Positions 12,692-36,393 of a DNA stretch of 64,000 bases are shown piece after piece. Origin of the DNA: Cupriavidus sp. P-10 (GTDB lineage Bacteria; Pseudomonadota; Gammaproteobacteria; Burkholderiales; Burkholderiaceae); the NCBI RefSeq assembly GCF_003402535.2, contig NZ_AP025173.1, positions 124,001 to 188,000 of the forward strand. Direction: 5' to 3'. How positions within the stretch are numbered: position 1 is the first letter of the stretch; each line of letters starts with the position of its first letter. Made by a program: the position numbers and the translations under genes. The notes under the pieces are model-generated. The model worked only from the letters and a program-made list of their open reading frames with translations. It had not been told where the DNA came from and did no database searches.

Positions 12692-14722
12692 ATGTCCGCG
12701 ACGATCGTCGGCCAACCTGTCGAGGAGAGTGTATTGGCAAATCCAGTTCGCGACGATTCAGCATCCCGCACGATCGCGGTCACGTCAAAGACCGGCCGCC
12801 GCTCTCCAAAAGGAAAGATCCAGGCGGTCGCAACACCGCTGGACATCGCGTCCATGGCGCGCCAGGACGAGGAGCGTCAACGCCAGATGCGCGCGCTGAT
12901 CGCGCTTGGCCGTGAGCGCGGCTATCTCACCCACGCGGACATCAACGATCACCTGCCCGACAACTTTACGCAAACTGCTGCGATGGAGACGATCGTCAGC
13001 ACATTCAGCGACATGGGGGTGGCCGTGTACGAGCAGGCGCCGGACGCGGAGACGCTCCTGTTAAGCGATGCCGCGCCTGCCGCGGCATCCGACGATCAGG
13101 CGGATGAGGAAGCGGAAGCTGCACTGTCGACCGTCGATTCCGAATTCGGCCGCACTACTGATCCGGTCCGGATGTACATGCGAGAAATGGGCGCCAGTGA
13201 ACTGCTGACTCGCGCCGGCGAAATCGAGATCGCAAAACGCGTCGAAGGCGGCCTGCAGGACATGATTCAGGCGATCGCCGCGTGTCCGTCAGTCGTGTCC
13301 ACGATTCTTGCCGATGCGGACCGCATCGTTGCCGGCGAACTGCGTATCGACGAACTGGTCGATGGCATCAGCGACGACGTGAACGAAAGCGAAATGGCGC
13401 TAGAGTCCGATGACGTTCAAGTGGAAGCAGACGCCTCCGACGATGACCCGGATGGTGATGACGCTGAAACGGACGCCGCGGATCCGGAGAAAGCGAACGC
13501 AGCCCGCCTCGAACAACTCACGATCGACAGTCTTGCGATTTTCGCGCGCGTGCGTGTACTGTTCGAGCAGTTGCCGGATGCACCCGTTACTGGGAAAGCC
13601 CGTTCCGCAGCCGTTGCGCAATTGCGCTTGGAGATCCAGCGTGAACTGGCTCCGATCCGCTTTACGGCCAAGACTATCGACCGCCTGTGTGCCAGTGTGC
13701 ACGAACAGGTTACCGAGGTTCGTGCAATCGAGCGCAGCATCCTGGAGATCGCCGTCGACCGTTGCGGCATGCCACGCGAGGCGTTTGTCGAGTCGTTCCC
13801 GGGCCACGAGACCGACCTTGAATGGACCAGCCATCTGGCGGCGACTTCGCGGCAGTTTGGCGCAGCGCTCGAGCGACATCTGCCGGCCATTCAGGCCGGC
13901 CAGCAGAAACTCATAGACATCGAGGCCGGGGTCTCGCTGCCGCTCCAGCAGCTCAAGCGGATCAACCGCCAGATGAGCGCCGCGGAGTTGAAAATGCGGC
14001 AGGCCAAGCGAGAACTGATCGAAGCGAATCTTCGTCTTGTCATTTCAATCGCCAAGAAATACGTGAACCGCGGCATGCAGTTCCTGGATCTAATCCAGGA
14101 AGGCAATATCGGCCTGATGAAGGCGGTGGACAAGTTCGAATACCGGCGCGGCTGGAAGTTTTCGACGTACGCCACTTGGTGGGTCCGGCAGGCTGTCACG
14201 CGTGCGCTTGCCGATCAGGCGCGAACCATTCGTGTGCCGGTCCACATGATCGAGATGATCAACAAGCTGAATCGGATTTCGCGCGAATTCCTGCAACAGA
14301 CGGGACAGGAAGCGCATCCCTCCGTCCTCGCCGAGCGCATGGAGATGTCCGAGGAAAAAGTGCGCAGTATCCTCAGGATCGCGAGGCAACCTGTCTCGCT
14401 CGAGACCCCTGTGGGCGACGACGCCGACGCGACGCTCGGCGACATGATTGAGGATGTCTCTGCGAGTTCACCGGCTGAGGCCGTGATTCACGCGAACATG
14501 CGCGCCGCGATCGATGAGGCACTCGACGGGTTATCGCCGCGCGAGGCCAAGGTCCTGCGGATGCGATTCGGGCTCGATACGATCTCGGACCACACGCTTG
14601 AAGAGGTCGGCAAGCAGTTCGACCTGACCCGCGAGCGGATCCGTCAGATTGAGAGCAAGGCGATGCGCAAGCTGATGCATCCCAGTCGTGCTGACAAGTT
14701 GAGGCCCTTTCTCGAGCGCTGA
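12692..14722 (+). CDS. rpoD: RNA polymerase primary-type sigma factor (additional RpoD)
   Basis: A 676-residue group 1 sigma-70. Region 1.1 is near residues 65-110, region 1.2 reads [28 protein letters not shown], and an acidic non-conserved insert lies around 230-260. Region 2 is canonical ([59 protein letters not shown]), as is region 4.2 ([31 protein letters not shown]). Small departures from housekeeping RpoD ([20 protein letters not shown], weakly conserved region 1.1) suggest a second, plasmid- or chromid-borne copy and not the chromosomal one. No recognised operon partner (dnaG, rpsU) is next to it, which supports that reading. Confidence 0.92.
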
Positions 14723-16974: not shown

Positions 16975-18024
16975 TCAGAGTGAAACTTCGACAAACTGCT
17001 CGCCGGCCATCGGATAGAGGGGCTTGAAGCTCGGCCACCCTTCCGGTTTGAGGCGCCATCTCGAGGTGTGCGGCACGTCGTAGTTGAAGAAGATCTCTGG
17101 GTGCTTGCCTTTGGCAATCAGCCGCGCGATCAGCTCGTTGTCGGGATGCCGGTACTTCTTTCCGCTCGTGCTAATCAAGAATCGCGAGCACCGGAGGGAC
17201 GTCAGGAGATCCAGGTCAGTATTGGCCTTGCTGCCATGGTGAGACACCTTGAGCAGATCGATCGGCTCTTGCTTCGAGTGATGGACCGCGAGCCCAGCCT
17301 TCACCACTTCGGCGAACGCGTCTGCGGCCAACAACATGCGCTTGTCGCCGAACTGCAGTAGTAGAGCAATACTGCTGCCGTTGGGAGTGGAGCTATCGGA
17401 CCGGGACTTTGACTTGGACAACTGTGAGAAGTCTCCTGGGGGCCAAGGGTCCTTGCGTCCCAGTCGGTCACCGGGGCCTGCGGGCGGCTCCGTCGGCGGC
17501 AACTCGGGATTCGCCCATTCCTCCGACAGCTTCTTCAGCGCCAAGGCATCTGGTGACAGCACCCGCACCTGTAGCTTGCCTTCAAGGATGACCTCCTTAC
17601 ACGATTGTTGGATCGTGCCCCTATCCGGAAACGCGTGATTCCAGGGAAGATTCCGGCGCCGGATCAACTTCGACAGAGCGTCGCCTTCACTCGGACCAAG
17701 CCTGTCTGCCTGTCGCAGGTGTTGATAGCCGTTGAACCATACGTCCGCGATGTCGAGCCACTCGGGCGGGTCGCTCAGCAGTTCGATCATCCCCTCGATG
17801 TGATCGAGGTCATAATGCGTCACCACCAGAGCCTCCAGTCGAAGCCGGCCGTTGACGCATAGCGGCTTCAGTACGGCCAGCAGCGCTTCCCGGGTGCCAG
17901 CGGGTCCGCCGTCGACTAGCACATGGCGAGGCCGGTCCGGGTTGCCGTAGCTGACGAGCAGCGCGTCGCCGTGTTCGGCTTGGATGGCTCTGATTCGAAA
18001 CATGCGCTTCTCCACTCCGCTCAT
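16975..18024 (-). CDS. ComEC/Rec2-type metallo-beta-lactamase-fold hydrolase
   Basis: A 349-residue stand-alone MBL-fold protein. The metal site THYDLDHIEG (His70, Asp72, Asp74, His75) and the later KVSHHGSKANTD are the two signature motifs of the ComEC-type MBL branch, without the ComEC membrane channel. The middle region (about 170-240) is low-complexity (GPGDRLGRKDPWPPGDFSQLSKSKSRS). It starts at ATG 18024, overlapping the stop of the CHAT gene by 4 bases (ATGA at 18024-18021), so it is translationally coupled. Known relatives are nucleases or phosphodiesterases. Here the partner protease suggests an effector or regulator pair. Confidence 0.88.
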   Translation of the reverse strand: MSGVEKRMFRIRAIQAEHGDALLVSYGNPDRPRHVLVDGGPAGTREALLAVLKPLCVNGRLRLEALVVTHYDLDHIEGMIELLSDPPEWLDIADVWFNGYQHLRQADRLGPSEGDALSKLIRRRNLPWNHAFPDRGTIQQSCKEVILEGKLQVRVLSPDALALKKLSEEWANPELPPTEPPAGPGDRLGRKDPWPPGDFSQLSKSKSRSDSSTPNGSSIALLLQFGDKRMLLAADAFAEVVKAGLAVHHSKQEPIDLLKVSHHGSKANTDLDLLTSLRCSRFLISTSGKKYRHPDNELIARLIAKGKHPEIFFNYDVPHTSRWRLKPEGWPSFKPLYPMAGEQFVEVSL

Positions 18025-20606
18025 TTGTTGCCGAGCACCGTGTCGGCATCGCCGAATGCCACCAGGGCCAGGCCAAGCGCGATCTCGTCCGCCAGGAATT
18101 TGCGCCGCAGCGTGCCCATGATCTCCCCGACCAGAACAGGTGTCGGTGACTTCGCCGCACTGAGAAACCCAATCGCTAGATCCCGTGCCGCCCGATTGGC
18201 ATGGCGACCTAGCACGTCCGTCATCGCCGCTACGACCATGCGCGCGCCATGCCTCAACAACACCGTCGGCAAGGTGCCCCCCGGCAGGTCTCCGTAGCCG
18301 GTGCTGCATCCAATGGTGATTGCCACGGGCGCCCCCATCCCGACATGCATCCGGGATATCCCCGCCAGGTTGAGGCCGACCTCTTCTTCCAAAAAGAGTT
18401 GGGTATTCTCCATGTGGACCACGAGCAGCAGCAGCGACGGGGACTGTTCGGCGACGCGGGCCTTCCAATGGGCCCAGGTTGGAAGCCTTTGAACCCCCAA
18501 GGACTTTTCGATGTCGGCGAGTCGAACCACCGCGTGTGGAGCGACGTCTTCGTCTTTGAAGTCATCGGCGCGGTCGCTTGCCGCGAAGGCGACGGTAGAC
18601 AAGTCCTTGATCTCCAGTCGCGTCCGTGCTCCTGGTGCGGCCGGTCTCCACAGAGGCGCGGGAAGTCCAGGCTTCCATGTGTGTCGTTCGACGATCGCGG
18701 ACACGCCGACAAAGCCCATGGGGCACAGCTGCACGGCGGCCTCCCGAATGGGACATCCCGGAATGGCATGTCCGCTCTTCAGGCATCCGTGGCGTTGTGA
18801 GCACAGTTCCGCATCGCTCGACTCCGGCACTGTGCCTTCATAAAGATACTCGATCGGGAAAAAGGCATTGCTCTGCGTCACCAGCTGGACGCGTGTCAGT
18901 TGGCCCGGCCAGGTGGGCACGAGCTCGCGGAGGCTGGACAACAGCAGGGAACCCTGATTGGCCAGGTCAAGCAGCATCGGCGCAAGCGGCGTTTCGGGGT
19001 CCACCACGGCCTGTTGAAGGATAGCCAACAGCTTTTTGCGGGCCTTCTCGGTGTCCGTATCGGTCAGCGGGGAGAAGATCGCTTCGCCCTCGGCGGTAAT
19101 CAATGCGACGCTGGGCTGGTTCCCGAGGCTGTCGTTGACCAGCAGGGCCAAGTCGAAGTTCTGCTTCTTGCGATGAACGGGCGTCACGACATTCTCGATG
19201 AAGAAGTGGATCGCCTCTCCAGGGGCTGATTGAAGGCGAGCGGTCTGGAGAATGCGCGCGCCGTCGCTCACCACGAGGCGCAGATCGACGGGACCGTTCC
19301 TGATCTCGCGAGAAAACGTGACAGCCTCGGAATCCCCCGTCCTTCTCACGGTCAGCGGCCGAGTGACCGGAGCACTTCCGATCTCAAGCAGGTGGACCAT
19401 CAAAACTTTACTGTCGCCGTCCCACTCGACCTGCTGTTCCGGGAAAGCCGGGCGAAGGCTGTGCAACGGCGTCCTGAGTCGGATATCGACGACGATGTCC
19501 ACCACGCCATGAAGAGGCCAAGTCTCGAGCTCCCGATGGCCCTGCCGGACACGGGAATCCAGCACCCTCTCCATGGGTGGAACGTGACGCTTGGCGTCGG
19601 TGCCCGGCCGTTCGCCATCGATCGTCGGCAAAAATGGCGTGAGCTCGGGGGCATCCAGCAAGACCTCTGGCGACGGGGCTGCTCGCTGCGCATGGGTCAA
19701 TCCGAGGTAATCGCCGCGCCTCTCCTTGATCAAACTCTGGCGCAGGAATCGGGCGCTACCCACGATAAACGTTTGAGTTGATGCCAAGATTCGGCCGCTG
19801 GCATTCGATTGAGCATTGGCTTCCTCAATGGCGTCTCCGAGGGGCAGTCCAAACTCACCCCATGACGTCAGCTGAAGTCGGAGCCATTCGGTGATCTGTC
19901 CGTCATCGACGTCGACATGAATCACGCACTGCGCGCTGAACCGGTCCCGCAGACTCTCGATCTGGGCCAGCAGATTTCCCCCCTGCCTGCCATACAAGAT
20001 CACGACCCGAGCCGCGACCATATCGCCCAGTGCCGCCAACGATTCGGCAACGACGATGTCGGCGACCTTGGCATCAGGACGCCAGACGACGTGGCGAGGC
20101 AATACCTCGTCGCTGCGAAGGCGATCGAGCGCGAACCGAGTGCCTGCGATGACGCGCAGCGGCGATTGCTCGGTCGCAGTCAATGGGAAACGGGGTCGAG
20201 TGTTCCGTGGCCAGTCCGCGAAGACGCGCTCAGGCCCCACGACCGTCGAGAGCTCAAGGGCGACCGAATTGACGGTTTCGGCATGTCCTGGCCAACTCCA
20301 TACCGACCTGACCACCTTGATGCACAGCGGCCCGCGACGATTCAGCGACGCGAACGCCCGGGCAATAGAGATGGCGACCAGCGGATCCACCCACTTGTCG
20401 GCCTCCATCACGCTCGCGTCGCCGCCCCACTTGGCGAGACCACTCTTTGGCACCGCACGTTCCAGCGCGTCACGCGCGTCGCCAGGGTCGTTCCACCAGG
20501 TCCAATCATTGCTTTCGAACAGAATACCGAGCCCCGCCCGCGCGGCGGGGCCAAGGTAGGCGTCCTCTTCGCCCAGCCATTGGATGTCCTTGTCTTTCTT
20601 GTCCAT
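18021..20606 (-). CDS. CHAT-type caspase-like protease, large
   Basis: An 861-residue protein whose last about 250 residues look like a CHAT (caspase HetF-associated with TPR) peptidase. LLLLVVHMEN carries the probable catalytic His731. AITIGCSTGYGDLPGGTLPTVLLRHGARMVVAAMTDV carries the probable Cys767 followed by the typical G(A)..VV..MT..V strand. The N-terminal 600 residues match nothing I recognise. They include a possible Rossmann-like region (VVILYGRQGGNLLAQIESL) and a region of beta-rich character, and probably sense or regulate. CHAT proteases act in programmed cell death and phage defence. The MBL gene downstream overlaps by 4 bases. The C-terminal identification rests on motifs only. 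Confidence 0.78.
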   Translation of the reverse strand: MDKKDKDIQWLGEEDAYLGPAARAGLGILFESNDWTWWNDPGDARDALERAVPKSGLAKWGGDASVMEADKWVDPLVAISIARAFASLNRRGPLCIKVVRSVWSWPGHAETVNSVALELSTVVGPERVFADWPRNTRPRFPLTATEQSPLRVIAGTRFALDRLRSDEVLPRHVVWRPDAKVADIVVAESLAALGDMVAARVVILYGRQGGNLLAQIESLRDRFSAQCVIHVDVDDGQITEWLRLQLTSWGEFGLPLGDAIEEANAQSNASGRILASTQTFIVGSARFLRQSLIKERRGDYLGLTHAQRAAPSPEVLLDAPELTPFLPTIDGERPGTDAKRHVPPMERVLDSRVRQGHRELETWPLHGVVDIVVDIRLRTPLHSLRPAFPEQQVEWDGDSKVLMVHLLEIGSAPVTRPLTVRRTGDSEAVTFSREIRNGPVDLRLVVSDGARILQTARLQSAPGEAIHFFIENVVTPVHRKKQNFDLALLVNDSLGNQPSVALITAEGEAIFSPLTDTDTEKARKKLLAILQQAVVDPETPLAPMLLDLANQGSLLLSSLRELVPTWPGQLTRVQLVTQSNAFFPIEYLYEGTVPESSDAELCSQRHGCLKSGHAIPGCPIREAAVQLCPMGFVGVSAIVERHTWKPGLPAPLWRPAAPGARTRLEIKDLSTVAFAASDRADDFKDEDVAPHAVVRLADIEKSLGVQRLPTWAHWKARVAEQSPSLLLLVVHMENTQLFLEEEVGLNLAGISRMHVGMGAPVAITIGCSTGYGDLPGGTLPTVLLRHGARMVVAAMTDVLGRHANRAARDLAIGFLSAAKSPTPVLVGEIMGTLRRKFLADEIALGLALVAFGDADTVLGNK

Positions 20607-24953: not shown

Positions 24954-25511
24954 AGTGCCTTGGGTCGGACGCTCAGTAAGACGCATCCGAACCGCAGAGA
25001 ACGGTCGGCCCGGGGCGCTCGCAGTTCCGCAGCTCCATCCTGCCAAGATTGGTCAGAAAGAGGTGCTCGGCGCCTTCCCCTCCGATATGTCGGTTCGCGG
25101 CAGAGGGGCGGTCATTACTGAACCAGCCCGTGGACGGCTGCATCGAGTCGCGAACCGCCACCCAAGCTCCGTAGATCGCCAGGATCGAGGCAGACAGCGG
25201 ACCAATTTATGTTTTAGTATCTCTGGCGAGGTCGAGTATGAAACGAAGGCGCAAGGACGCACTCCATCGGGTACTGGCGCACGATCGCTTAAGGCTGAAA
25301 GTGGCGCGGCGCGATCGGAAAATTTGACAAGGAACAATGCGGAGATTTCCGCTATTCGCCCGCCAGCTGTCAACAGGTGAACGTGTACGACTTGGAGCAG
25401 ATCCGCGGGCTGCACCCCCGCAGTGCGCAGAGACGTTGATTAGTATTCTAGAAAGGTTCTACGCCTCGATTCTGTTACCGTAGACCCTTCAGACTTTATT
25501 GGAGAATAAGA
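24954..25511. other. 558-base stretch, possibly with a tiny gene at 25237-25326
   Basis: No clear gene. ATG 25237 opens a 29-codon basic frame (MKRRRKDALHRVLAHDRLRL...) with a GAGG upstream, which may be a real microprotein or a remnant. The TTG start and GGAG ribosome site (25501-25504) of the next gene are at the right end. Confidence 0.3.
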
Positions 25512-25952
25512 TTGAGCAACCCGTCCTTTGCAAAGCGCATCGCCGAGATGAACGCGATGTACAAGCTGCCGGCGCAGCCGACGCCGGCTCTGCCGGCGGA
25601 CCCAGCCGATCGGCTGCGCAAGTTCAAGACAACCCTCCTGGATGAGGTAAACGAGATCGACGAGATCATCGCGGCCTGTGAAAGTAAGGCTGAGCCCATC
25701 GATGTGCTGGTCGCGGTCGCTGACCTGCTGGGTGACGTGATTGTCTACTGCCGATCAGAAGCGCTGAAGTACGGAATCCCACTCGAGGATGTCTTGAGCG
25801 TGATCATGGATAGCAATGAGAGCAAGCTGGGGGCTGACGGCAAGCCCATCTACGACAGCAATGGGAAGTTCCTGAAGGGGCCGAACTATTGGAAGCCGGA
25901 GTCGAAAATCAAGGAACTGCTTCAAGCGGCGATTGGCAGCGCCAAGACCTGA
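25512..25952 (+). CDS. MazG-like all-alpha NTP pyrophosphohydrolase
   Basis: A 146-residue protein with the helical MazG/all-alpha NTP-PPase pattern: KFKTTLLDEVNEIDEI supplies the ExxE metal ligands and DVLVAVADLLGDVIVYCRSEALKYGIPLEDVL the ExxD-like second helix pair, followed by the conserved VIMDSNESKLGADGKPIYDSNGKF..GPNYWKPE tail seen in phage- and plasmid-borne relatives. Such enzymes hydrolyse non-canonical or excess (d)NTPs; in defence contexts they alter the nucleotide pool. Start TTG 25512 with GGAG seven bases before it. It converges on the operon ending at 25957, leaving only a few bases between stops. Confidence 0.72.
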   Translation: MSNPSFAKRIAEMNAMYKLPAQPTPALPADPADRLRKFKTTLLDEVNEIDEIIAACESKAEPIDVLVAVADLLGDVIVYCRSEALKYGIPLEDVLSVIMDSNESKLGADGKPIYDSNGKFLKGPNYWKPESKIKELLQAAIGSAKT

Positions 25953-25956
25953 CGCG

Positions 25957-26880
25957 TCAACCGGCCGTAGCGGTTGGGGCCGCGTCGTCGCCGCGGTCCA
26001 CCGTCACTGTGAAGCGGTGCCAGAGATCCACTCCCGTCGACCGCTTTTGCTTGCGGCGCGGATGATCGAAGAGCAAACCAACTTGCTCAGGATAGACACT
26101 CGCAAAAATCGCTGACGCAATGCCGCAGGGCTTAGGGCCGATCGGCGCGACAAACATCCGTCTGTCGGTGCCGAGAGCGTCGCGTGTTCGCTCAAGGCAC
26201 TCGAACGCCGCTTCCGGGTCGTTGGCCGAGCAGTAGTCGAGTTGCAGCTTGTGCTGCTCCAACGCCGGCAGGTGCGGGATGATAGCGTCGAGCTCCCACC
26301 CGGGATGGTAGGCGGGTATACCGAAAACCAGCTTGACGTCCTTCGAGGTGATCATCTGGTACTCTTCGAGTGCTCGGTCAAGTCTTTCAGGCTCGAAGCC
26401 CAGGAAGAAGACACCAGCTTCGACTTCCTCGCTGGACAGATCGACAATCGCGTTGGGGATGGCAACATAGCCGCGCGTCGGTTCGGACAGGGCGAACTGG
26501 TCGGCGCCTTTGCTAACCCGCGTGTATTCCCCCGGTTCGACGTAGATGATATTCACTGTCGTCGCGCCACTGGCCAGCAACGCGTTGGCGGCGCAGAACA
26601 GCTCCGCGAAGCCGAGCGTAGTGGCTTCCAGAAACACTTTGCGCCAGTCGTATCCACTGAGCAACTCAACTGCCAGGTCACTCGGTTTCGTTTCGCCGCC
26701 GACTGTAAGGGACATGTCTTCGACACCAAAACTGAGCATCACGCGGGCGTCCTTCGGCGCGCACCCGCATGCCGACTCACCGCGCTCATCAAGCTCCTCG
26801 CCGTGCAACAGGACGATGTCGTCTGGAAGACTGAGGTCGGCGGCGCTGCTTCCAGAGACTGAAAAGAACCGGACCCTCAT
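25957..26880 (-). CDS. Unrecognised protein, last gene of the methylase-PRTase-ATPase operon
   Basis: A 307-residue soluble protein with no family I recognise. It starts MRVRFFSVSGSSAADLSLPDDIVLLHGEELDERGESACGC. It contains alternating beta-strand and helix stretches (VNIIYVEPGEYTRV, YVAIPNAIVDL, AGVFFLGFEPERLDRAL, VKLVFGIPAYHPGWEL, MFVAPIGPKPCGIASAIFAS), suggesting a Rossmann-like alpha/beta fold. The ATG overlaps the stop of the ATPase gene by 4 bases (26877-26880), so it is co-translated with it. A conserved partner of the ATPase is the best guess; an effector role is speculation. Confidence 0.75.
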   Translation of the reverse strand: MRVRFFSVSGSSAADLSLPDDIVLLHGEELDERGESACGCAPKDARVMLSFGVEDMSLTVGGETKPSDLAVELLSGYDWRKVFLEATTLGFAELFCAANALLASGATTVNIIYVEPGEYTRVSKGADQFALSEPTRGYVAIPNAIVDLSSEEVEAGVFFLGFEPERLDRALEEYQMITSKDVKLVFGIPAYHPGWELDAIIPHLPALEQHKLQLDYCSANDPEAAFECLERTRDALGTDRRMFVAPIGPKPCGIASAIFASVYPEQVGLLFDHPRRKQKRSTGVDLWHRFTVTVDRGDDAAPTATAG

Positions 26881-28844
26881 GACAACAGCAGGCCGAGCTG
26901 AAGCGCATCGGTATCCGACAGCTGGCGCGCAAGCCCGCGCGCGAGATCGCGGTACTCATTCTCGTTGCCCATGATAAGCATGTGAAACTGCTCCACTGAT
27001 ATTTCTAGCTTGCGCTTTCGTCTGTAGCTGATCTGAAAGTATGGCGCGTAGATTGGATTCAGCTGATAGTCCACGATATCCTGGCCAACCCCCGATTTGG
27101 ATTTGGTTTCCAATTGCTCGACCAAAACCCCGTGCCGTAGCGCCTCCGCGATGAATGCTAGCTCGTCACCCTGCAAAGGACGGCCGCCAGAGTTGATTGT
27201 GAACTGATTTTGCTCAGGCTCGCTCATCGCAGGGCTGGCTTGCAGTGCTCTGAAAATGCTTCCTAACCTGAGCACAAACACTCGTAACTGCTCGCCGAAA
27301 CGCCCGAAGGTACGGATTTCCTTGATCAGCTGTTCGGAGGCGTCATAGGCCGCCCGGCATTGAATATCAACTGCATAGGGTGGTTCAATCTGATCGCGCA
27401 GCTCTGCGACCTCGAGAGTTTTGTAGCAAAGGATTAGAAAATTCCGAAGGTTGTTGTTCGACATCGTGCAAAGCGTGTCGAAGCCACTGTACAGCGGACA
27501 TTCGCGGGCGAATGGCCGATACAGCTCCAAAATCGCCCCGAAGAGATTGTTGTGTATCCATGTGGACTCGAAGGAGCCTTTGCGGTTCTTGGAGAATTTC
27601 TTGAGCTCCGCCAGAACATTGTCTGGAAGCAGCGTTTCCCGGTTTAACAACGCGGGGAGCGTCACCAACGCTTCCGCAGGCGCACCTTCAAACAGGAAGT
27701 CCTCAACAGCCAAATTGCTCCTGCGATCCTTGAGTGCCTTGCTTATCCGGCGATAAAGGCTTTCCTTCAGCGTCTGAACTTGAAGCGCGTTCGCTGCAAT
27801 TTGCTTGTCAGTGACGTCGGGAAATCGCGTGCGCATGTCCGCGACGACCTCCCTTTGGTACTGGGGCTTCTGGCGCTCGGCTAGACGTGCATGGGAACAA
27901 ACAACGTCGAGCAACTCACTATCAAATCGCCCAGCCGCAATGTCCAGGTTGCCGAGGAAAACCTCGGCAAAGAATGGCATGGCAGCTCCGCTAAGCTCCA
28001 GATAGTAGTCGAGGTCAACCAACCGGTAGTCGTGGGTGGCGTTAATCGACTCGGGGCCGGACGTATCGTTGTTGGAGGGATGTTCCTTTGACGTGAAGTT
28101 GATGATCAGCGGTCGCTGGCTGTGTTTTAGGAACGAGTTCAGGACATGCCGCTGATATGGCACGAGGTTTTCGATTTCATCTACGTAAACAAAGACAGAA
28201 AGCGTTGCCAACGAAGCTTTTGCGCGGAGGTCACCCACCAACGACAAAATGAAGTCTCGCCCGGGTGGCAGGACGGGACAGTCCATCGCTTTCACATTGG
28301 AAACCCACGTCGTGAACTTGCGTCTTATCGACTCTAGGTATTGGACCAACTGCCGAACGCCTGTTGGCGCATCGTCCAAGTAGTCGGCGGCGCTAGGAAG
28401 CGTGAGAGCCGCGAGGTCGTCCGAATTAAAATTCGGAAAAGAACTGTTGGCAATGGCTTCGACCGCACGGAGCAACTCGGTGGCGATGACGAGCCCGAAG
28501 TAGCTTTCAAAGACGACGCTCCACTCGGTGTCCTCTATGCCTCGATGCTTGAGCGAGCTGCAGAACTGGGTGTCGACACGCCAGTAGATCCCGATATGGT
28601 CGATAGCGTCTGCAGGAATGTCCTTCCTGCGTTTCGAGAACGCCGTGTGGTAATCGAAATATTTCAGCAGCATGGTCTTGCCACAACCACGCTTGCCAGT
28701 GATGTAGGCCGACTTGGTGGCCGTCGTCAGTGCCAATCGGTCGAAATAGGGTGGAATAAAGAATTCACCCCATACATCGGCGTCATGTTCCTCGGCGCGC
28801 GTGCGCGCTAGCATGGAGGCGTTAATTTGCATGGTCAAGCTCAC
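26877..28844 (-). CDS. ORC/Cdc6-like P-loop ATPase
   Basis: A 655-residue AAA+/STAND-type ATPase. Walker A is GKRGCGKT (residues 50-57) in AYITGKRGCGKTMLLKYFDYHTAF; Walker B is VFVYVDEIENLVPYQRH; a sensor-like LIINFTSKEHPSN follows. The arrangement and the about 400-residue helical C-terminal region resemble the ORC/Cdc6-like ATPases of bacterial conflict systems. The start overlaps the PRTase stop by 4 bases and its stop overlaps the next start by 4, so it is the middle of a tightly coupled operon. It probably provides NTP-dependent switching or DNA recognition. Confidence 0.82.
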   Translation of the reverse strand: MSLTMQINASMLARTRAEEHDADVWGEFFIPPYFDRLALTTATKSAYITGKRGCGKTMLLKYFDYHTAFSKRRKDIPADAIDHIGIYWRVDTQFCSSLKHRGIEDTEWSVVFESYFGLVIATELLRAVEAIANSSFPNFNSDDLAALTLPSAADYLDDAPTGVRQLVQYLESIRRKFTTWVSNVKAMDCPVLPPGRDFILSLVGDLRAKASLATLSVFVYVDEIENLVPYQRHVLNSFLKHSQRPLIINFTSKEHPSNNDTSGPESINATHDYRLVDLDYYLELSGAAMPFFAEVFLGNLDIAAGRFDSELLDVVCSHARLAERQKPQYQREVVADMRTRFPDVTDKQIAANALQVQTLKESLYRRISKALKDRRSNLAVEDFLFEGAPAEALVTLPALLNRETLLPDNVLAELKKFSKNRKGSFESTWIHNNLFGAILELYRPFARECPLYSGFDTLCTMSNNNLRNFLILCYKTLEVAELRDQIEPPYAVDIQCRAAYDASEQLIKEIRTFGRFGEQLRVFVLRLGSIFRALQASPAMSEPEQNQFTINSGGRPLQGDELAFIAEALRHGVLVEQLETKSKSGVGQDIVDYQLNPIYAPYFQISYRRKRKLEISVEQFHMLIMGNENEYRDLARGLARQLSDTDALQLGLLLS

Positions 28845-29734
28845 CGTTCAACCAGCGGCTTCCAACTCGGGGAGACGTCCCAAAGTAGCTGAATCGAATC
28901 ATCCGGCACTCCGTGCTCAAACGCGACCAGTGCCCCGATATTGCCATAGCCGTTGCCGCCATTTCCGTTCGCAAAAGGTTGATTGCGCTTGTGCACGTCA
29001 TCATAGACTTCCAGCGGGGATTTCTCATAGCTCCATTGCCCGGTCTCAATCCACTTTTGAGACAGAGATTGAAAGCACATGTCTGCGGTCAGGAGCTCGC
29101 CATAAATTAGCGGCACGTTCGGGAACTCCTTCTTTAGATGCTCGCAAGCCGTCTTGTGAGCCATCGCAACAGCGATCGCGACGCGCCCATGAGAAAAATC
29201 GATATCCCATCCCCGCAGGAAGTTCGCAAGCTGGACGCCTGTATATGTTCCGTCGTCTACGACGATGAATCGTTCATCTGGCGGCAAGACTTTGACGTCA
29301 GAGGGATACTGCTTGTCTATACCATACCGCTGGTTAATCAACCTGGCGATCAGGTCACCGCTCTTTCCGGGCTGGGTTGGCAAGCCGAAAGTCGGAAGCG
29401 ACGGCGGACCGCAGTAGAAGGTCAGACCAGCGTGGCGTTTAAGCGCATCATTCCACGCAACGTTCTCCCGCAGGCCTAGCTGATCGACAAAGTGGATGGT
29501 CGCCTGTTTCAGGGCCTGCCGCATGGAAGACTGCAACTGCTCGTTAGTACGAAAAATCAGGTTTCGTAGGATCAGCCAGGCTAGTGTCTTTTCTTCCGGC
29601 GCTTGAAATTGTTTGACCCACTGCTTGATGCGCTCAACGCTAAGGGGGGACCGCACGCCTGTGCGACTAAGCCAGTGAACCGCCCGCTCGACGGAAAGCT
29701 GGTCGAAGCTACCGATTTGAGGAATCTGCGACAT
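28841..29734 (-). CDS. Phosphoribosyltransferase-fold protein
   Basis: A 297-residue protein with a type I PRTase core. The PRPP loop is RFIVVDDGTYTGVQLANFL (residues 155-173), with the paired acidic residues and TG motif. A long helical N-terminal part (residues 1-105) precedes it. There is no link to purine, pyrimidine or cofactor salvage in the neighbourhood; it sits between a methylase and an ORC-like ATPase, with a 4-base overlap with the ATPase start and an 11-base gap after the methylase. Conflict-associated PRTase families of this kind are thought to modify nucleotides or produce a signal. Substrate unknown. Confidence 0.8.
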   Translation of the reverse strand: MSQIPQIGSFDQLSVERAVHWLSRTGVRSPLSVERIKQWVKQFQAPEEKTLAWLILRNLIFRTNEQLQSSMRQALKQATIHFVDQLGLRENVAWNDALKRHAGLTFYCGPPSLPTFGLPTQPGKSGDLIARLINQRYGIDKQYPSDVKVLPPDERFIVVDDGTYTGVQLANFLRGWDIDFSHGRVAIAVAMAHKTACEHLKKEFPNVPLIYGELLTADMCFQSLSQKWIETGQWSYEKSPLEVYDDVHKRNQPFANGNGGNGYGNIGALVAFEHGVPDDSIQLLWDVSPSWKPLVER

Positions 29735-29745
29735 CGTGAGTCAGG

Positions 29746-31026
29746 TTAGAACTGAATCTCGAACAAGTTGGTCTTCGACATAAACCTTGCAGCCACACCA
29801 TGCGCGGAAGAAGCCAGGGCATGCCTACCCAGATCGCTGTCGAAGAACCGATACAGGCGCTCGCGATGTTCATCCATCGCACGCAACGCAAAGATGCAAT
29901 CGCTAATAACGCATGGTCCGTGAACTACCAAGGCTAGTCGGTCTTCAAGGGATCGGCCCACGCGAGCAAGCAAAATGTCGCCCGGCAGCGCCAGCCGGGC
30001 CTCTTCCAACATTTGCTGAGCTTTGCGTTCGCTAAGCGCAAAGCGCTTAGGCACGACCCTCACGGCGTGCTCGCCTAGCGGTTCTGAAAAGTCGCCGAGG
30101 TGGAACACCGGAGCCGGGAACGCTGAAATTGACGATGAACAGACTGTCCCTCGCACGACGTCCGTCAATGCTTGGCGTACGGACATCCGCATCGGCCCTT
30201 CGCCACTTCGCTGAGGTGACACGACTCGCGCATGAAAGGTGAAATCGAGCCGTTTGACAGCCGCTTCCTGCAGGATCTCGATCGGCACGCTGAGTTGCCC
30301 GTCGGAATCCATCTGCCTAAGCGTCACTTGATTCGTCTCGCCGGCGCTCTTAGACAGCACGGCGAGGTAGGTTTGAGCCTCAGTGCCCTTGAACACTCCA
30401 CGCGGTAGCTGAACCACCTGCTCAATCAAATGTTGTCGAAGCAGGGTCTTTCGCACTCCGGAGAATCGTTCGGCGGTGATAAGGCCGTCAGGAAGGATCA
30501 GCCCAAGCTTTCCGTTTTTGCGCAATAGGCGCAAGTTCTGAGCAAGGAAGAGAAGGTCTGCGCCGGCGTCGTGCAGCGAGGCAAGCGTGCCTGACAATCC
30601 GGCATCCTCTAGAATTTTGCCAAAATCAGATCGCCACTTGGGCCGAATGTACGGCGGGTTGCAGACTGCCACGTCCACCGTGCCGGGAGCCAAGCCAATC
30701 TTGTCGGATAGCGCAGCGTCGAGCACGTCGTGGACATAATGACTGTGTCGGCGGCCGGTCCCGACCATGTCGGCATCCAGGGCCTTCGGAGCGCGGCTGT
30801 CGACGTCGACTGTCACCAACTGGGCTTTGTGCCAGCGAGTCGCGGCAGCGGTGCACAAGGAGCCAGAGCCAGAGCCCAACTCAAGAACTAGCTTCGGCTT
30901 GGCTACCTCGATCCTATCAACCAATGATTGGCTGACAATGGGCGTGGTGTAGTACCGCCCCCAAGGGTCGGATGTATGACCTGCTCGAGCCAGAACTTGA
31001 CCCATACCACTTGTTGACGTAGCCAT
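29746..31026 (-). CDS. N6-adenine DNA methyltransferase with C-terminal specificity-like region
   Basis: A 426-residue class I SAM-dependent methylase. LVLELGSGSGSLCTAAA is the SAM-binding motif I, VDVAVCNPPYIRPKW holds the catalytic NPPY (residues 123-126), and GKLGLILPDGLI follows as in HsdM-like enzymes. Residues about 270-426 (GDILLARVGRSLEDRLALVVHGPCVISDCIFALRA) resemble the target-recognition end of type I S or type IIG proteins, so target choice is probably built in. First gene of the operon; no restriction endonuclease is present. ATG 31026 directly follows GAGGGAG, unusually close; ATG 31005 is an alternative start. Confidence 0.87.
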   Translation of the reverse strand: MATSTSGMGQVLARAGHTSDPWGRYYTTPIVSQSLVDRIEVAKPKLVLELGSGSGSLCTAAATRWHKAQLVTVDVDSRAPKALDADMVGTGRRHSHYVHDVLDAALSDKIGLAPGTVDVAVCNPPYIRPKWRSDFGKILEDAGLSGTLASLHDAGADLLFLAQNLRLLRKNGKLGLILPDGLITAERFSGVRKTLLRQHLIEQVVQLPRGVFKGTEAQTYLAVLSKSAGETNQVTLRQMDSDGQLSVPIEILQEAAVKRLDFTFHARVVSPQRSGEGPMRMSVRQALTDVVRGTVCSSSISAFPAPVFHLGDFSEPLGEHAVRVVPKRFALSERKAQQMLEEARLALPGDILLARVGRSLEDRLALVVHGPCVISDCIFALRAMDEHRERLYRFFDSDLGRHALASSAHGVAARFMSKTNLFEIQF

Positions 31027-31344: not shown

Positions 31345-31593
31345 TTATCCGACCCGGAAAAACTCCACGCTCTGCCCCGCATTGACCGCCCGCTTGAGCC
31401 ACGACGGCATCTCGCCCTGCCCGTCCCAGGGCAGCCCTTCCGCGTTGCGATAGCAGACCACCGGCGGTGAGGGTGGCAGCGGGGGCGGATCAAAGCACCC
31501 CGCCGCCTCCAGTTCCTCCAGTGTCAACCCATAGTCGGCCATCTGCGCCTGGATTCAGCGGATCGAGTCCGCCCGCTCAGCTTTTGCTGCCAT
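31345..31593 (-). pseudogene. H-NS-like small protein with an in-frame TGA (paralogue of 38964)
   Basis: The frame from ATG 31593 reads MAAKAERADSIR, then TGA at 31557-31555, then IQAQMADYGLTLEELEAAGCFDPPPLPPSPPVVCYRNAEGLPWDGQGEMPSWLKRAVNAG. The intact paralogue at 38964-39218 has Trp (TGG) at the TGA position. A shorter product from ATG 31542 could still contain the H-NS-type DNA-binding domain (YRNAEGLPWDGQGEMPSWL) without most of the N-terminal part. No KfrA gene accompanies this copy. Confidence 0.7.
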
Positions 31594-31773: not shown

Positions 31774-34248
31774 CTACGGCTTCATCGCTGGCAGACTTCC
31801 GACAATCTGGGCACCAGCAACGCCGCACTCATTCAACCGCCGGCCAACCGTTGCTGGATCGGTGAAGAGCGGCCCATCGAAGGTAAGGCTTAGCACAACC
31901 TGCCGCAGACGATCGATGATGCTCATCAGCACCGCTTCGCTCAGCAGGCGAGGACCGAAGCCAATGTCCTCTGCCCGGTCGGCTGCCGTGACATTGGTCG
32001 CAAACACCGGTACTGGCTTGGGTGTACCTGGGGCCAGCGAATCATCACACCACTGCATGCTGAGGACGAGTTGCGCTGCCTCTGTCTTGAAGATGGGCGC
32101 AGTCTTCTCGCTTTTCGCTTCAATGCAGAGCCCGCAGTCATCGAACAGCCAGAGAACATCCGGTCCCCGACCGGTCTCCTTCTCCGGGCGATTGGAGGTC
32201 GCGCCGAGCAGTTCGCCTAGTTCATGCAGACCACGCTCGACGACCTCTGCCGAATTGCCGTACGAAAGCTTCGCACGGACCTCGTCCAATCGCGCCACAG
32301 CTGCATTGGCAGAGGCAAAGCTGCTGAACGCCTGGCACACGGCAATTGCCTGATTGGTCAGCCGCGCGAACTTGCGATCTGCGACCTGCTCCGGTCGCGG
32401 AAACTTGGTGTTCGCTGCGAAGACGGCCTTGTACGTCTCCGCCGCTTGGGCGGGACTGAACTGATTGAGATACGTCGCAACCCAATAGAGGATCTCGGCC
32501 TTCTGGATAGGATGCAATTGGGACGCGTTCGCCGCCTCCCGCAAGCGGGTGACCGCCCCCTGGAAGTTCTTGGCTTTGGCCAGCATCCACGCTTCCCGCA
32601 TCGCCACCGCAGCCGCTTCGAATGGAGTCAGTGCAGCTGGTCTGGGCTGCCTTGCCTGAACTTTGACGCGCACACGGTGCGCTTCCTTCCAGCCCTCATT
32701 GCGGCCCAGCAGGGCCTGCCCCATCTCCGCGATCACGGCGGAAATAGGCCTGCCCTTTCCCGCGTTCTGTGCAAGTTCTCGACCGAGATCCAGTTGCAGA
32801 CGCGTCCGCGCTTCAAGAAGCGCGACGACGTTCTTGCGGCCGATGAATGCCGCGATGTCGGGGCCAACCAACAGGACCGCCGCATAGTCCGCGCTCGACC
32901 GGACTGCGCGCCCCAGTGCCTGCTCGAACTTGTTGACAGTTCTGACTTCGTACTCGGGACTGTCCTTCTGACGGAAAGCATCGGCTTGGTCGGTGATGCG
33001 CTCACCGCTCGGGATACCGTCGATCACCAGAATGCGGCAAGCGTCGTCGGGCAAGTCGACGCCATCAAAGCGCTGCGCAAAAACGACATAGTTGCCGATC
33101 GTGGTGCGAAGCCGCTCCAGTGCGCCGGCGAACTCGGTGTCCTGAGACAACGTGGCACCAGCATCGGTCCAGGTCTTCGCTTGTGCCGCCGAGGTTGTCA
33201 GCACGACGACGTTGGTCTGCTTGGAAAGTTGGGCGCAGACGGCGGCGATCTCCTCCTTCTTGCATTCTGCACTGATGAGGGATGTCGGCAGGATCATGCG
33301 CTCACCGGCCCCCTCATCTTCAGCCGGCTCGACAATGCGCCCGTACGCCGCTGGGTCGCAACCCAGCACGGCAATCAGCCCCGAGATATCCTTGATACTG
33401 GCCGACATGAACAGCCGGTGCTTGGCTCCGGCATAGGCGGACACCTCCTCAACCGGCGGGACCTGCAGCACAATTTCGGCGGACACGCCCGAAATGCAGC
33501 AGCGCGCCAGTTCGAGATAGCGCGCGATGTTTGGCCAGGTGAACCGCAGCGACTTTTCCGTCTTGTGAGGATCCAGTATCTGTGCCACCTGACCGCACAC
33601 CTGTGCCCAGATCCAGTACGGCACTTCATACAGGGAAGCGACATCATTCTTCATGATGCCGGCCCACGTCGCAGCATCGGTTGGTTCGCACAAGGGCCTA
33701 AGCAAAGTCCGGAGCTGATCGAGACACTCTGCCGGCACTTGGACGGTATAGTACTTTCGCACACGTTCGGTGCCAGCATGCACGTCATCGAGCACGATGG
33801 CCGAGGGCCGGATCGCCTGGCTCTCGAAGACTGAGCCGCTTGTGAACAGCTTGTCGTACGTGCAAGCAAGAATGGCATCACCGCTCATGGCCGCGTAGGG
33901 AAGGCCGGTGCCAAAGGTGGAGACACTCACGCCAATTGCCTGCCCAGTGGCGACAACTTGTTCGACAAGCTGCCTTGTCGGGCACAGATAGACGACGGGC
34001 TCCCCCTTGTACTTGCGGCGCATCATCTCCGCATAGATCAGGCCGAGGATGGTCTTACCCGAGCCCGTGCTGAGCTTCATGATCACGTCGCGCTGTACGA
34101 GCTGCAGATCCAACGCAGCGAGCGCTGCAAGCTGCGCCGGGCGCAAGCCCGTATGGGTAGCCCTTCTATCCAGTTGCTTGAACAATTCGGCAAGCGTCGC
34201 CGGCACTTCAGCCGCCGTCGTCTTCGCCAACGATCCGAAATCAAACAT
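31774..34248 (-). CDS. DEAD/DEAH-like helicase with C-terminal PD-(D/E)xK nuclease motif
   Basis: An 824-residue superfamily 2 protein. Walker A is STGSGKT (residues 60-66), motif II is LDDVH (about 153-157), motif III-like MSASIKDIS and motif VI-like FEQALGRAVRS. The two RecA-like lobes span about residues 40-480. A helical TPR-like part follows (about 540-660). Near the C-terminus GPDVLWLFDDCGLCIEAKSEK gives the D...ExK pattern of a restriction-type nuclease. A single-chain helicase-nuclease of this size is a common design in phage defence. It lies downstream of the RES gene on the same strand, separated by about 155 bases. Confidence 0.82.
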   Translation of the reverse strand: MFDFGSLAKTTAAEVPATLAELFKQLDRRATHTGLRPAQLAALAALDLQLVQRDVIMKLSTGSGKTILGLIYAEMMRRKYKGEPVVYLCPTRQLVEQVVATGQAIGVSVSTFGTGLPYAAMSGDAILACTYDKLFTSGSVFESQAIRPSAIVLDDVHAGTERVRKYYTVQVPAECLDQLRTLLRPLCEPTDAATWAGIMKNDVASLYEVPYWIWAQVCGQVAQILDPHKTEKSLRFTWPNIARYLELARCCISGVSAEIVLQVPPVEEVSAYAGAKHRLFMSASIKDISGLIAVLGCDPAAYGRIVEPAEDEGAGERMILPTSLISAECKKEEIAAVCAQLSKQTNVVVLTTSAAQAKTWTDAGATLSQDTEFAGALERLRTTIGNYVVFAQRFDGVDLPDDACRILVIDGIPSGERITDQADAFRQKDSPEYEVRTVNKFEQALGRAVRSSADYAAVLLVGPDIAAFIGRKNVVALLEARTRLQLDLGRELAQNAGKGRPISAVIAEMGQALLGRNEGWKEAHRVRVKVQARQPRPAALTPFEAAAVAMREAWMLAKAKNFQGAVTRLREAANASQLHPIQKAEILYWVATYLNQFSPAQAAETYKAVFAANTKFPRPEQVADRKFARLTNQAIAVCQAFSSFASANAAVARLDEVRAKLSYGNSAEVVERGLHELGELLGATSNRPEKETGRGPDVLWLFDDCGLCIEAKSEKTAPIFKTEAAQLVLSMQWCDDSLAPGTPKPVPVFATNVTAADRAEDIGFGPRLLSEAVLMSIIDRLRQVVLSLTFDGPLFTDPATVGRRLNECGVAGAQIVGSLPAMKP

Positions 34249-34403: not shown

Positions 34404-35120
34404 TCATCGGTCCACCGTAAATCCCCCCTCGAAGGGCTCCGCGTAGCTGCTGTCCCTCCGGAGCGCGTTGAACTCGGGCATTTCAGAGAAGCGCACGACC
34501 TGCACATCGACCTGGCGGCGCCATTGCCCCAGTGAGCCGGATTGCACAGCCAGCGCAAGATGGCCCTTATGCTTACGCGACGGATAGCGAAAACCGATCG
34601 GTGCGCCGCCGTCGGCAAAGCTCGCCAGGACGTCGAACATCCGCAGGCCGAACCACTGACACCAGTCGTATTCGCCCTCGTGGATGCGATCATAAATGCC
34701 CAGCTTGCTGAGAACGGTGCCGTCAAGATCGAGGATGGGGATATCCGCTTGCACGGTGAAGGTCGCGATCAGGCCCGTCTCCGCAATGGCTCGGGGGATA
34801 TAGAACGTGCCCGGCTGCGTGATGTCGTTCGTGCAGAAGCCGGATTCCCACAGTGCAGTCGTGAGATCCTGGGCGGCATACATCCAGTAGATCGGGTAAC
34901 GCCCTCCCTCACCGGCCAATGCGGCGGGCGGTCCGAATCGGTAGGTGCGCTCCACGTGTGGCGGGATGACCGCGGCCGGATGCCGGACGGCGCGGACAAT
35001 CCGGGTGCCGGCCGGCACGAAGACCACCGCGCCGTCCAGCGCCCGACGCAAATGGTCAAGGGTAGGAAGAGTAGCGGCAATCGAAGCCGGTACGACAAAT
35101 TCTCTTGGTATCAACATCAA
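34404..35120 (-). CDS. RES-domain toxin
   Basis: A 238-residue RES-domain protein. The family triad Arg-Glu-Ser is suggested by RTYRFGPPAALAGEGGRYPIYWMYAAQDLTTALWE and the later hydrophobic core up to QWFGLRMFDVLASFADGGAPIGFRYPSRKH. RES toxins are ADP-ribosyltransferase-like enzymes that deplete NAD+ or modify a metabolic enzyme. The ATG overlaps the stop of the upstream antitoxin-like gene by 4 bases, the usual Xre-RES arrangement. Length is at the upper end for the family. Confidence 0.85.
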   Translation of the reverse strand: MMLIPREFVVPASIAATLPTLDHLRRALDGAVVFVPAGTRIVRAVRHPAAVIPPHVERTYRFGPPAALAGEGGRYPIYWMYAAQDLTTALWESGFCTNDITQPGTFYIPRAIAETGLIATFTVQADIPILDLDGTVLSKLGIYDRIHEGEYDWCQWFGLRMFDVLASFADGGAPIGFRYPSRKHKGHLALAVQSGSLGQWRRQVDVQVVRFSEMPEFNALRRDSSYAEPFEGGFTVDR

Positions 35121-35737
35121 CTGATCAGATCCGAACTGCGCGAGGACAGCGCGGCCAGCTGCGTGATCACCCTGCCCTGCCGCTCGCTTGCGGCTTGAGC
35201 AAGGTGGCCACGCTGCGCAGCAGTTAGCGCCGCTCGCGATTCGAACGCCCTGCCCGCCAGCAACTCGGCCGGCGTCAGGTCGTCGAAGGCGTCAACCGGC
35301 GTCACCCAGAACGCATGGATTTCGCTGCTCGGCAGGTTTTTCATCTGGCGCAGGACCGGAGTCAGCAACTCGGGCACCGGCGGCGCGAATTGCCAGGCCG
35401 GGAATGCGCGGCCAATCGCCTTGCCGCGGGGGGTGACACAATAAAAGCGTGCATCCTCCACCGCGCGATACAGCGTCGCCTGCGACATGGCCACCAGACC
35501 TTGCGCAATGACCTCCGAGGGCTTCAGATATGACACGGCGAGGCGGTCTTCGACTGCCGCCGCCGAGGCGGGGCTGGAGAGCGTTGCCGTCAGGCACTGG
35601 CGCACAATGGCCATTACGCGGGCACGCTCGCCAGCGTCGATGGTCTGCTCCAGTTGCTCGTCAATGTCGTGGACCAATTTCTCGACCAGTTGGGGGCCGG
35701 GTGCGACGGCAGCCGGCGCGTGAAAACGCGGTGTCAT
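35117..35737 (-). CDS. Antitoxin-like protein with Xre/MbcA/ParS-type C-terminus
   Basis: A 206-residue protein with the C-terminal toxin-binding pattern of Xre/MbcA/ParS antitoxins: GKAIGRAFPAWQF...IHAFWVTPVDAFDDLTPAELLAGRAFE. An N-terminal helical part (RARVMAIVRQCLTATL, LKPSEVIAQGLVAMSQATLYRAVED) may supply the DNA-binding HTH. ATG 35737 has AAGGAG at 35745-35750; the longer upstream frame is not coding. It overlaps the RES start by 4 bases and follows the SSB-like gene by 11 bases, so the three form one operon. It should neutralise RES and autorepress. Confidence 0.82.
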   Translation of the reverse strand: MTPRFHAPAAVAPGPQLVEKLVHDIDEQLEQTIDAGERARVMAIVRQCLTATLSSPASAAAVEDRLAVSYLKPSEVIAQGLVAMSQATLYRAVEDARFYCVTPRGKAIGRAFPAWQFAPPVPELLTPVLRQMKNLPSSEIHAFWVTPVDAFDDLTPAELLAGRAFESRAALTAAQRGHLAQAASERQGRVITQLAALSSRSSDLIS

Positions 35738-35748
35738 ATCAAACTCCT

Positions 35749-36393
35749 TCAAATGACCGCAACCGGCGGGGCAAAGGCCGGGTGAATCGTCGCCTCCCGG
35801 TCGGCGTGGTGGCACGACACTACATGACCAGCGAGGAAGGACCGGACCTGAGCGGCCAAAGCAGAAAGGCGGTGCGTCCGCCGGGATTCCGCAATCGAGG
35901 CGCGAAGAGCGCTGCGCACAAGACGGCGAACGACTGCCGTCAATCTGGCCGGAACGTGTCCTCCCAGCAGGTCTAGATACAGGAGTGCGCGCGTCTCCCT
36001 GGTGTCATACCCGAATTCGACGACATCCCTCAGAAGTCGCCAGTAACGGTGGGCCACTGCGAGGCGGATGTTCGCGACCGGCGCGTCGGACGGCAGGCAC
36101 CGTACTTCGGGACCCTCGCCCAGCTGGCCCACCAGGATGACGCGATTGACCTTAGGCTTCGCCGGCGTCTCCAGACCCGGATCCGCTTCCCCGCGCACCT
36201 CGGCGGCGATCTCGATCGTCCGCGGGCCGAGCAGCTTCCGATAAAGCGCACTGAGCGCGGCGACATCGGCCTCGTAGACGGGCTCGCGGTCGTCTGCTTT
36301 GTTCACCCCCGCTTCCCGAAGCCTCTCGAGAAGCGTGTCCGGCTCGATACGCATGCGGGCGGCCAGATCGGCCACACTAGAATAGGAACTCAT
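35749..36393 (-). CDS. Chimeric protein with SSB N-terminal segment, first gene of the RES operon
   Basis: A 214-residue protein. Residues 1-50 (SSYSSVADLAARMRIEPDTLLERLREAGVNKADD) look like a small HTH or IF2N-type helical module. Residues about 82-118 (KVNRVILVGQLGEGPEVRCLPSDAPVANIRLAV) match the first two strands of bacterial single-stranded DNA-binding protein very well. The remaining SSB OB fold is missing; instead there is a helical basic C-terminus (HRYWRLLRDVVEFGYDTRETRALLYLDLLGGHVPARL). No frameshift restoring SSB was found. It may be a functional fusion or an old recombination product. No strong ribosome site. Confidence 0.65.
   Translation of the reverse strand: MSSYSSVADLAARMRIEPDTLLERLREAGVNKADDREPVYEADVAALSALYRKLLGPRTIEIAAEVRGEADPGLETPAKPKVNRVILVGQLGEGPEVRCLPSDAPVANIRLAVAHRYWRLLRDVVEFGYDTRETRALLYLDLLGGHVPARLTAVVRRLVRSALRASIAESRRTHRLSALAAQVRSFLAGHVVSCHHADREATIHPAFAPPVAVI

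Follow-up and report, generated by a model that had tools for sequence, protein, structure and literature searches.

The window, a 64,000-nucleotide stretch of a 425,452-bp replicon of Cupriavidus sp. P-10, contains four adjacent genes that are all on the minus strand and have the coordinates given in the original prediction. In order of transcription they encode a stand-alone N6-adenine DNA methyltransferase (29746..31026), a phosphoribosyltransferase of the PRTase-CE family that we propose to be the effector (28841..29734), an ORC-CDC6-like AAA+ ATPase that appears to be the hub of the unit (26877..28844) and a CARF6-family protein that we propose to be a ligand sensor or switch (25957..26880). 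Read from the sequence, 11 nt separate the methylase stop from the PRTase start, and the ORC and CARF genes overlap in ATGA. The predicted overlap between the PRTase and ORC genes is present as GTGA when the longer ORC frame is used, but RefSeq begins ORC 12 nt further downstream, at an in-frame ATG (28832), and this leaves a gap of 8 nt instead. The RefSeq starts, which were taken from the annotation of an identical plasmid, also differ for the methylase (31005) and for a convergent plus-strand gene at 25512..25952 (RefSeq start 25557) that encodes a MazG/DR2231-like all-alpha NTP pyrophosphohydrolase. Scans of this region for promoters and terminators returned nothing usable above shuffled sequences (5 vs 2.4 expected and 4 vs 7.1 expected, respectively).

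DNA similarity of 70-72% to three other loci (L002, L003 and L006) extends over roughly 25,496 to 30,994, beginning only at 25,701 in L003, and no similarity to these three loci was found beyond this block at E 1e-10. The conserved block is larger than the predicted four-gene interval and takes in the convergent gene, which thus belongs to the mobile cassette. The view of the four genes as one unit is upheld by their conserved co-occurrence at other loci (see below). A helicase gene further upstream (31774-34248, minus strand) was considered as a fifth operon gene and rejected: a 747-nt gap with an H-NS-like gene lies between, tblastn found no relative of the helicase in loci L001-L010 and DNA similarity stops at 30,994. 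This helicase matches the PADLOC model PDC-S28 for a candidate defence helicase (E 4e-224), and a second copy, 36% identical, is present elsewhere in the same genome (G000:C43). The H-NS-like gene that lies between helicase and methylase, directly 5' of the latter (31345-31542, minus strand), is short and assigned to the H-NS family in RefSeq; it is a possible silencer of the operon.

The methylase matches the Pfam families PF02384 (E 1e-17) and Eco57I PF07669 (3e-8) and the PADLOC model MTase_II PDLC03285 (3e-78). It carries NPPY at residue 123, and NPP[YF] is retained in 14 of the 14 four-gene loci compared; its C-terminal region is the probable target-recognition part. The earlier proposal of self-marking by a stand-alone N6-adenine methylase is supported. 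No nuclease family appears among the listed profile matches of the four proteins, so that the unit, taken by itself, does not correspond to a type II restriction-modification system. A homolog of the window methylase at another locus (L034, 37% identity) adjoins a different P-loop ATPase with the motif GPRGCGKT and is perhaps a parallel methylase-ATPase pairing.

The ATPase matches PF24389 at 343.6 bits against a curated cut-off of 27 and its Walker motifs are intact: A reads GKRGCGKT, which places an arginine within the P-loop, and B reads VYVDE. This agrees with its original assignment as an ORC-type ATPase; a claim about its fold from a structure model was dropped, as the model was too weak. 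Within the phylum, 14 of 398 genomes, including that of the window, have a PF24389 match above the cut-off. Used as the query against a phage collection, ORC found two records that belong to a single Acinetobacter entry type and have flanks resembling bacterial chromosome, and a phage-borne origin was therefore rejected. The PRTase belongs to PRTase-CE by its match to PF24390 (104.4 bits against a cut-off of 27, E 1.2e-29) and by its PRPP motif VDD..TG, and it also matches the PADLOC model PRTase_III-A (7e-14). Within its VVDDGTYTG segment, D160, D161 and G166 are invariant in all 12 aligned proteins. The single PRTase sequence matched no PDB chain, and a 12-sequence profile matched PDB 1wd5 (E 0.0002) and, with E values from 0.0025 upwards, uracil phosphoribosyltransferases.

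The fourth protein, which had been left unrecognised, matches the PADLOC CARF6 model PDLC01920 (E 5.3e-72) over profile positions 18-294 of 297 and has the Rossmann-like CARF fold, a receptor fold shared with the SAVED domain of Cap4, with Csm6 and with Card1. We propose that a second CARF-like lobe makes it SAVED-like. Across 46 sequences its invariant residues include E85-A86-T87 and P246-I-G-x-K250, which hint at binding of cyclic oligoadenylate or a related ligand but are suggestive only; the domain could also be a structural relic. Profile and fold searches found no effector domain beyond CARF. The proposal that this gene is the toxin, or the best candidate effector, was consequently rejected. 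The PRTase is the better candidate, because its position in the operon is exchanged among loci while CARF6 is a constant partner of ORC that has no effector domain. Type III-A retrons also typically use a PRTase as their effector, according to the part of PMC12548924 available to us. The nucleotide theme suggested for the unit is in keeping with these assignments. In the genome that carries the window, neither the SMODS profile PF18144 nor the Cas10-palm profile PF22335 had any match. In control searches, SMODS matched in three of 14 genomes, and PF22335 in five of 14, E. coli among them, so that the latter profile is not strictly specific. On these profiles the unit is neither accompanied by a CBASS CD-NTase nor an accessory of a type III CRISPR system.

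The product of the convergent gene matches PDB 3nl9 (E 5e-5) and DR2231 entries (E 0.004-0.025). We link it to DR2231 because of these PDB matches, since the MazG profile PF03819 alone (13.2 bits) is below its cut-off of 22. The gene is retained beside the CARF gene in L001, L002 and L006, and partly in L003. At L004, L007 and L065 a dUTPase_2 protein adjoins the CARF or the PRTase gene instead, and L008 has a close relative of that protein (E 1e-95). Overall, an all-alpha pyrophosphohydrolase of one of these two kinds is located beside the unit in nine of the 15 loci with both CARF and ORC that were compared (the window, L001-L004, L006-L010, L055, L056, L063, L065 and L093), the one at L003 being partial, and none was found in the other six (L009, L010, L055, L056, L063 and L093). 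Both kinds have been linked to dUTP (the review PMC5122711, in the part available to us, and the title of a 2016 paper on DR2231), though these two sources disagree about DR2231, which is specific for dUTP alone according to the title and promiscuous according to the review.

A scan of genome contigs with the fourth protein found ten loci, eight of which carry all four genes. Of the remaining two, one is cut by a contig edge inside ORC and the other retains a 49-residue ORC remnant. Because eight of ten loci are complete, the four-gene association is not due to chance, and the genes do co-occur elsewhere, as the original prediction demanded. Gene order is the same as in the window in six of the eight, and the methylase follows the CARF gene in L009 and L010. 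Further four-gene loci are present on a Diaphorobacter plasmid, on an Enterobacter plasmid, in an Acinetobacter record beside tRNA-Val and in two more genomes (G101, in which the PRTase match has E 1.7e-18, and G582). Across 14 four-gene loci, pairwise identities correlated with those of ORC for CARF (Spearman rho 0.90), the PRTase (0.88) and, less closely, the methylase (0.52), with p-values that do not represent independent tests. The methylase in G582 is only 23% identical to that of the window, compared with 51% for ORC.

We used ORC profile searches of 398, 369 and 399 genome entries, among which the window's own genome and others recur, to compare operon content in the 25 other genomes with an ORC match of at least 90 bits. 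A CARF6-like gene is located directly 3' of ORC in 24 of these 25 loci. The exception (G884) lacks a CARF gene and its methylase has a shortened start, perhaps due to deletion or misassembly. The slot before ORC, or fused to its N terminus, varies. It is occupied by PRTase-CE in nine loci (G101, G434, G243, G582, G837, G879, G1090, G998 and G1105), by HD-CE in five (G107, G416, G465, G1070 and G1136), by a calcineurin-like metallophosphatase in four (G328, G180, G963 and G869), by a Ser/Thr kinase fused to ORC in three (G616, G653 and G1080) and by a ParA-like domain fused to ORC in two (G491 and G958), and it is out of view in G884 and G946.

The methylase varies likewise. A DNA methylase is present within the operon at 19 of the 25 loci and belongs to one of four classes: the N6 type of the window in five (G101, G582, G491, G958 and G884, assigned by similarity rather than by Pfam scan), N6_N4 in six (G616, G653, G837, G879, G1090 and G1080), C5 in six (G107, G1136, G1070, G998, G1105 and G416, the last with three genes between the methylase and the HD gene) and D12 in two (G963 and G869). 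A scripted check found none of the four classes in view at four loci (G328, G180, G434 and G243), of which G328 and G180 are near-identical at the locus and not independent, and the loci of G465 and G946 adjoin a contig end. The four loci with no methylase in view indicate that marking is not obligatory for the core.

ORC matches below 90 bits were left out of the 25, although two of them fit the pattern: a kinase-ORC-CARF fusion in a single protein with C5 methylase genes on both sides within about 2 kb (G341, locus L030; 87 bits) and a PRTase-ORC-CARF6 unit (G084). In a third (G601), a fragment of a contig carries ORC plus a CARF-like gene; the remaining weak matches, including G824, G383, G279, G113 and G413, are short and were not counted as family members. 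Three PRTase-ORC-CARF units (L060, L061 and L062, in G434, G243 and G084) are accompanied by a HAD-hydrolase protein of about 640 residues, and L061 and L062 additionally by a PfkB kinase; this subfamily may make or break a nucleoside-like compound. At two loci with an N-terminal ParA/MinD-like fusion to ORC (L094 and L103), proteins with no Pfam match precede the fusion, and CARF and methylase genes follow it.

From 25,500 to 31,026, the window shares 100% identity with pRK1-1, a Cupriavidus basilensis plasmid (NZ_CP062805.1; 425,364 bp, typed conjugative) and the one plasmid record in which this DNA version was found. Far more widespread is the version of the four genes on the Enterobacter plasmid (L056), whose CARF protein shares only about 25% identity with that of the window. 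Its DNA matches 142 of 72,556 plasmid records, in 140 of them across 80% or more of the four-gene stretch; 130 of the 142 are from Klebsiella and 131 are typed conjugative. This version also occurs in four of 5,426 complete E. coli genomes, in all cases on plasmids and in strains named C600 or J53, names of laboratory conjugation recipients. Other homologs are located on chromosome-sized contigs (1.28 Mb for L004 and 3.6 Mb for L009). In the records looked at, the annotation names only the methylase of the unit.

We consider the chances about even that the unit is a methylation-gated defence module, probably directed against phages or plasmids. The methylase would mark host and plasmid DNA, and the ORC ATPase and CARF6 would form a core switch, with ORC assembling at or close to unmarked DNA. 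Because a constant ATPase-sensor pair is combined with four methylase classes, the pair itself does not appear to read one particular methyl group. Since methylases of all four classes share one core, the methylase is probably the reader of the site as well as its marker, which would be the simplest reading by analogy with the BREX methylase as reported in the accessible part of PMC12839542. ORC would then convert the engagement of an unmarked site into effector activation, with the CARF protein acting as a ligand-gated checkpoint that binds a nucleotide-type ligand. Once triggered, the switch would activate the PRTase as a non-nuclease effector acting on PRPP or the nucleotide pool, such that the infected cell stops growing, and the adjacent dUTPase-type pyrophosphohydrolase might tune the same pool or protect the host. 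The exchanged enzymes (PRTase, HD, phosphatase and kinase) are all compatible with a non-nuclease growth-arrest effector.

Such a module would tie the nucleotide-receptor fold of type III CRISPR and CBASS to self/non-self discrimination by DNA modification, in a genome with no recognisable signal-making enzyme, and the exchange of methylase classes and effectors around a constant pair is a clear and testable design rule. With the four-gene version on about 140 public plasmid records, mostly from Klebsiella, it may affect how sensitive these bacteria are to phages and how plasmids spread among them. A broader proposal seems unlikely, namely that the ORC/CARF6 core is a general immune chassis which reads the mark via any plugged-in methylase and fires any plugged-in non-nuclease effector, its CARF ligand being made by no recognisable CD-NTase or Cas10 but possibly arising from PRTase or dUTPase chemistry or from the ATPase when triggered by unmarked DNA. 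If true, the chassis would constitute its own class of methylation-gated, nucleotide-signalled immunity.

The same parts and the same gating could instead serve plasmid addiction. Loss of the plasmid would dilute the methylase, unmarked chromosomal sites would trigger ORC, CARF and the PRTase, and plasmid-free cells would die, much as with restriction-modification. The conjugative 425-kb plasmid and the predominance of conjugative records for the Enterobacter version fit this explanation, but the homologs on chromosome-sized contigs fit it less well, and we regard it as quite unlikely, though it and defence are not mutually exclusive. It is also conceivable, if improbable, that the PRTase is a signal generator rather than a toxin, with CARF reading its nucleotide signal and ORC blocking replication of the invader directly. 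CARF is a nucleotide-ligand fold in a genome with no SMODS or Cas10-palm match, and PRTase and CARF co-vary with ORC, but the CARF-ORC pair also occurs with HD, metallophosphatase and kinase partners, from which no one common signal would be expected.

Counter-defence sets often include methylases and dUTPases. Together with the plasmid context, this could mean that the methylase shields incoming plasmid DNA from restriction while the nucleotide enzymes help establishment, yet a gated switch better explains why one ATPase-sensor pair stays constant among methylases of four classes, and such an entry cassette is distinctly improbable. We regard it as very improbable that the unit has no immune role and is simply a nucleotide-salvage operon with an orphan methylase next to it. 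Although PRTases and pyrophosphohydrolases are also housekeeping folds, the CARF6 and retron PRTase models belong to a defence library (PADLOC), and both the patchy distribution (the 14 of 398 genomes with PF24389) and the DNA-bounded mobile cassette argue against it.

The methylation-gated module shares parts with several described systems. A kinase-AAA+-CARF fusion of the CARF6 group, with a P-loop arginine finger in an AAA+ domain upstream of CARF, was described in 2014 (PMC4012209). It joins in one chain ORC and CARF parts like those of the window, and L030 is of that kind, whereas the window has separate genes plus a PRTase and a DNA methylase, neither of which is named in the accessible part of that paper. 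Two window proteins are direct members of Pfam families (PRTase-CE PF24390 and ORC-CDC6-like PF24389) that have HD-CE PF24391 as a sister family. Because their accession numbers are consecutive, these families seem to have been defined together from one conflict-system survey, probably that of Burroughs and Aravind in 2020. In the literature searched, no text was found that ties them to DNA methylases of several classes, to dUTPase-like genes or to a CARF/SAVED-fold partner.

An N6-adenine methylase for self-marking is common to BREX, MADS and the window, and BREX further has an ATPase of the ORC/Cdc6 clade and a methylase that can bind unmethylated sites (PMC12839542, in part). PglZ and BrxC of BREX were absent from the PADLOC matches of ten window proteins that included the operon, and matches to the Mad1-8 set were limited to mad2 for the methylase (2e-20) and mad8 for the ATPase (0.045), with NCBIfam MAD2 at 31.7 bits against a cut-off of 720. 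Type III-A retrons share the PRTase family, but no reverse transcriptase was found among 11 window proteins scanned. CBASS and type III CRISPR share the SAVED/CARF receptor fold; the window differs in the absence of SMODS and Cas10-palm matches from its genome and in a CARF protein with no effector domain. The original prediction left open that an operon with the same four components had already been characterised. No description of this set was found in the literature searched, which did not include the 2020 CARF classification and the 2020 J Bacteriol paper, two predictive papers that may list the association. The part families are already catalogued; the literature searched yielded no published account of a plug-in architecture coupled to methylases or of the link to dUTPases.

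Four other genes in the window also stand out. A RES-domain gene by Pfam (34404-35815, minus strand) overlaps a second gene upstream in a layout like that of RES-Xre toxin-antitoxin pairs. A gene at 35749-36393 (minus strand) encodes an IF2_N-like start followed by only the first 38 or so residues of the SSB fold, and the product is a putative chimeric or decayed SSB. At 12692-14722 (plus strand) there is an annotated primary sigma factor RpoD, an apparently unusual gene for a conjugative plasmid to carry. Finally, an 861-residue protein with no Pfam match is encoded at 18021-20606 (minus strand), and its C-terminal part looks, by eye, CHAT/caspase-like.
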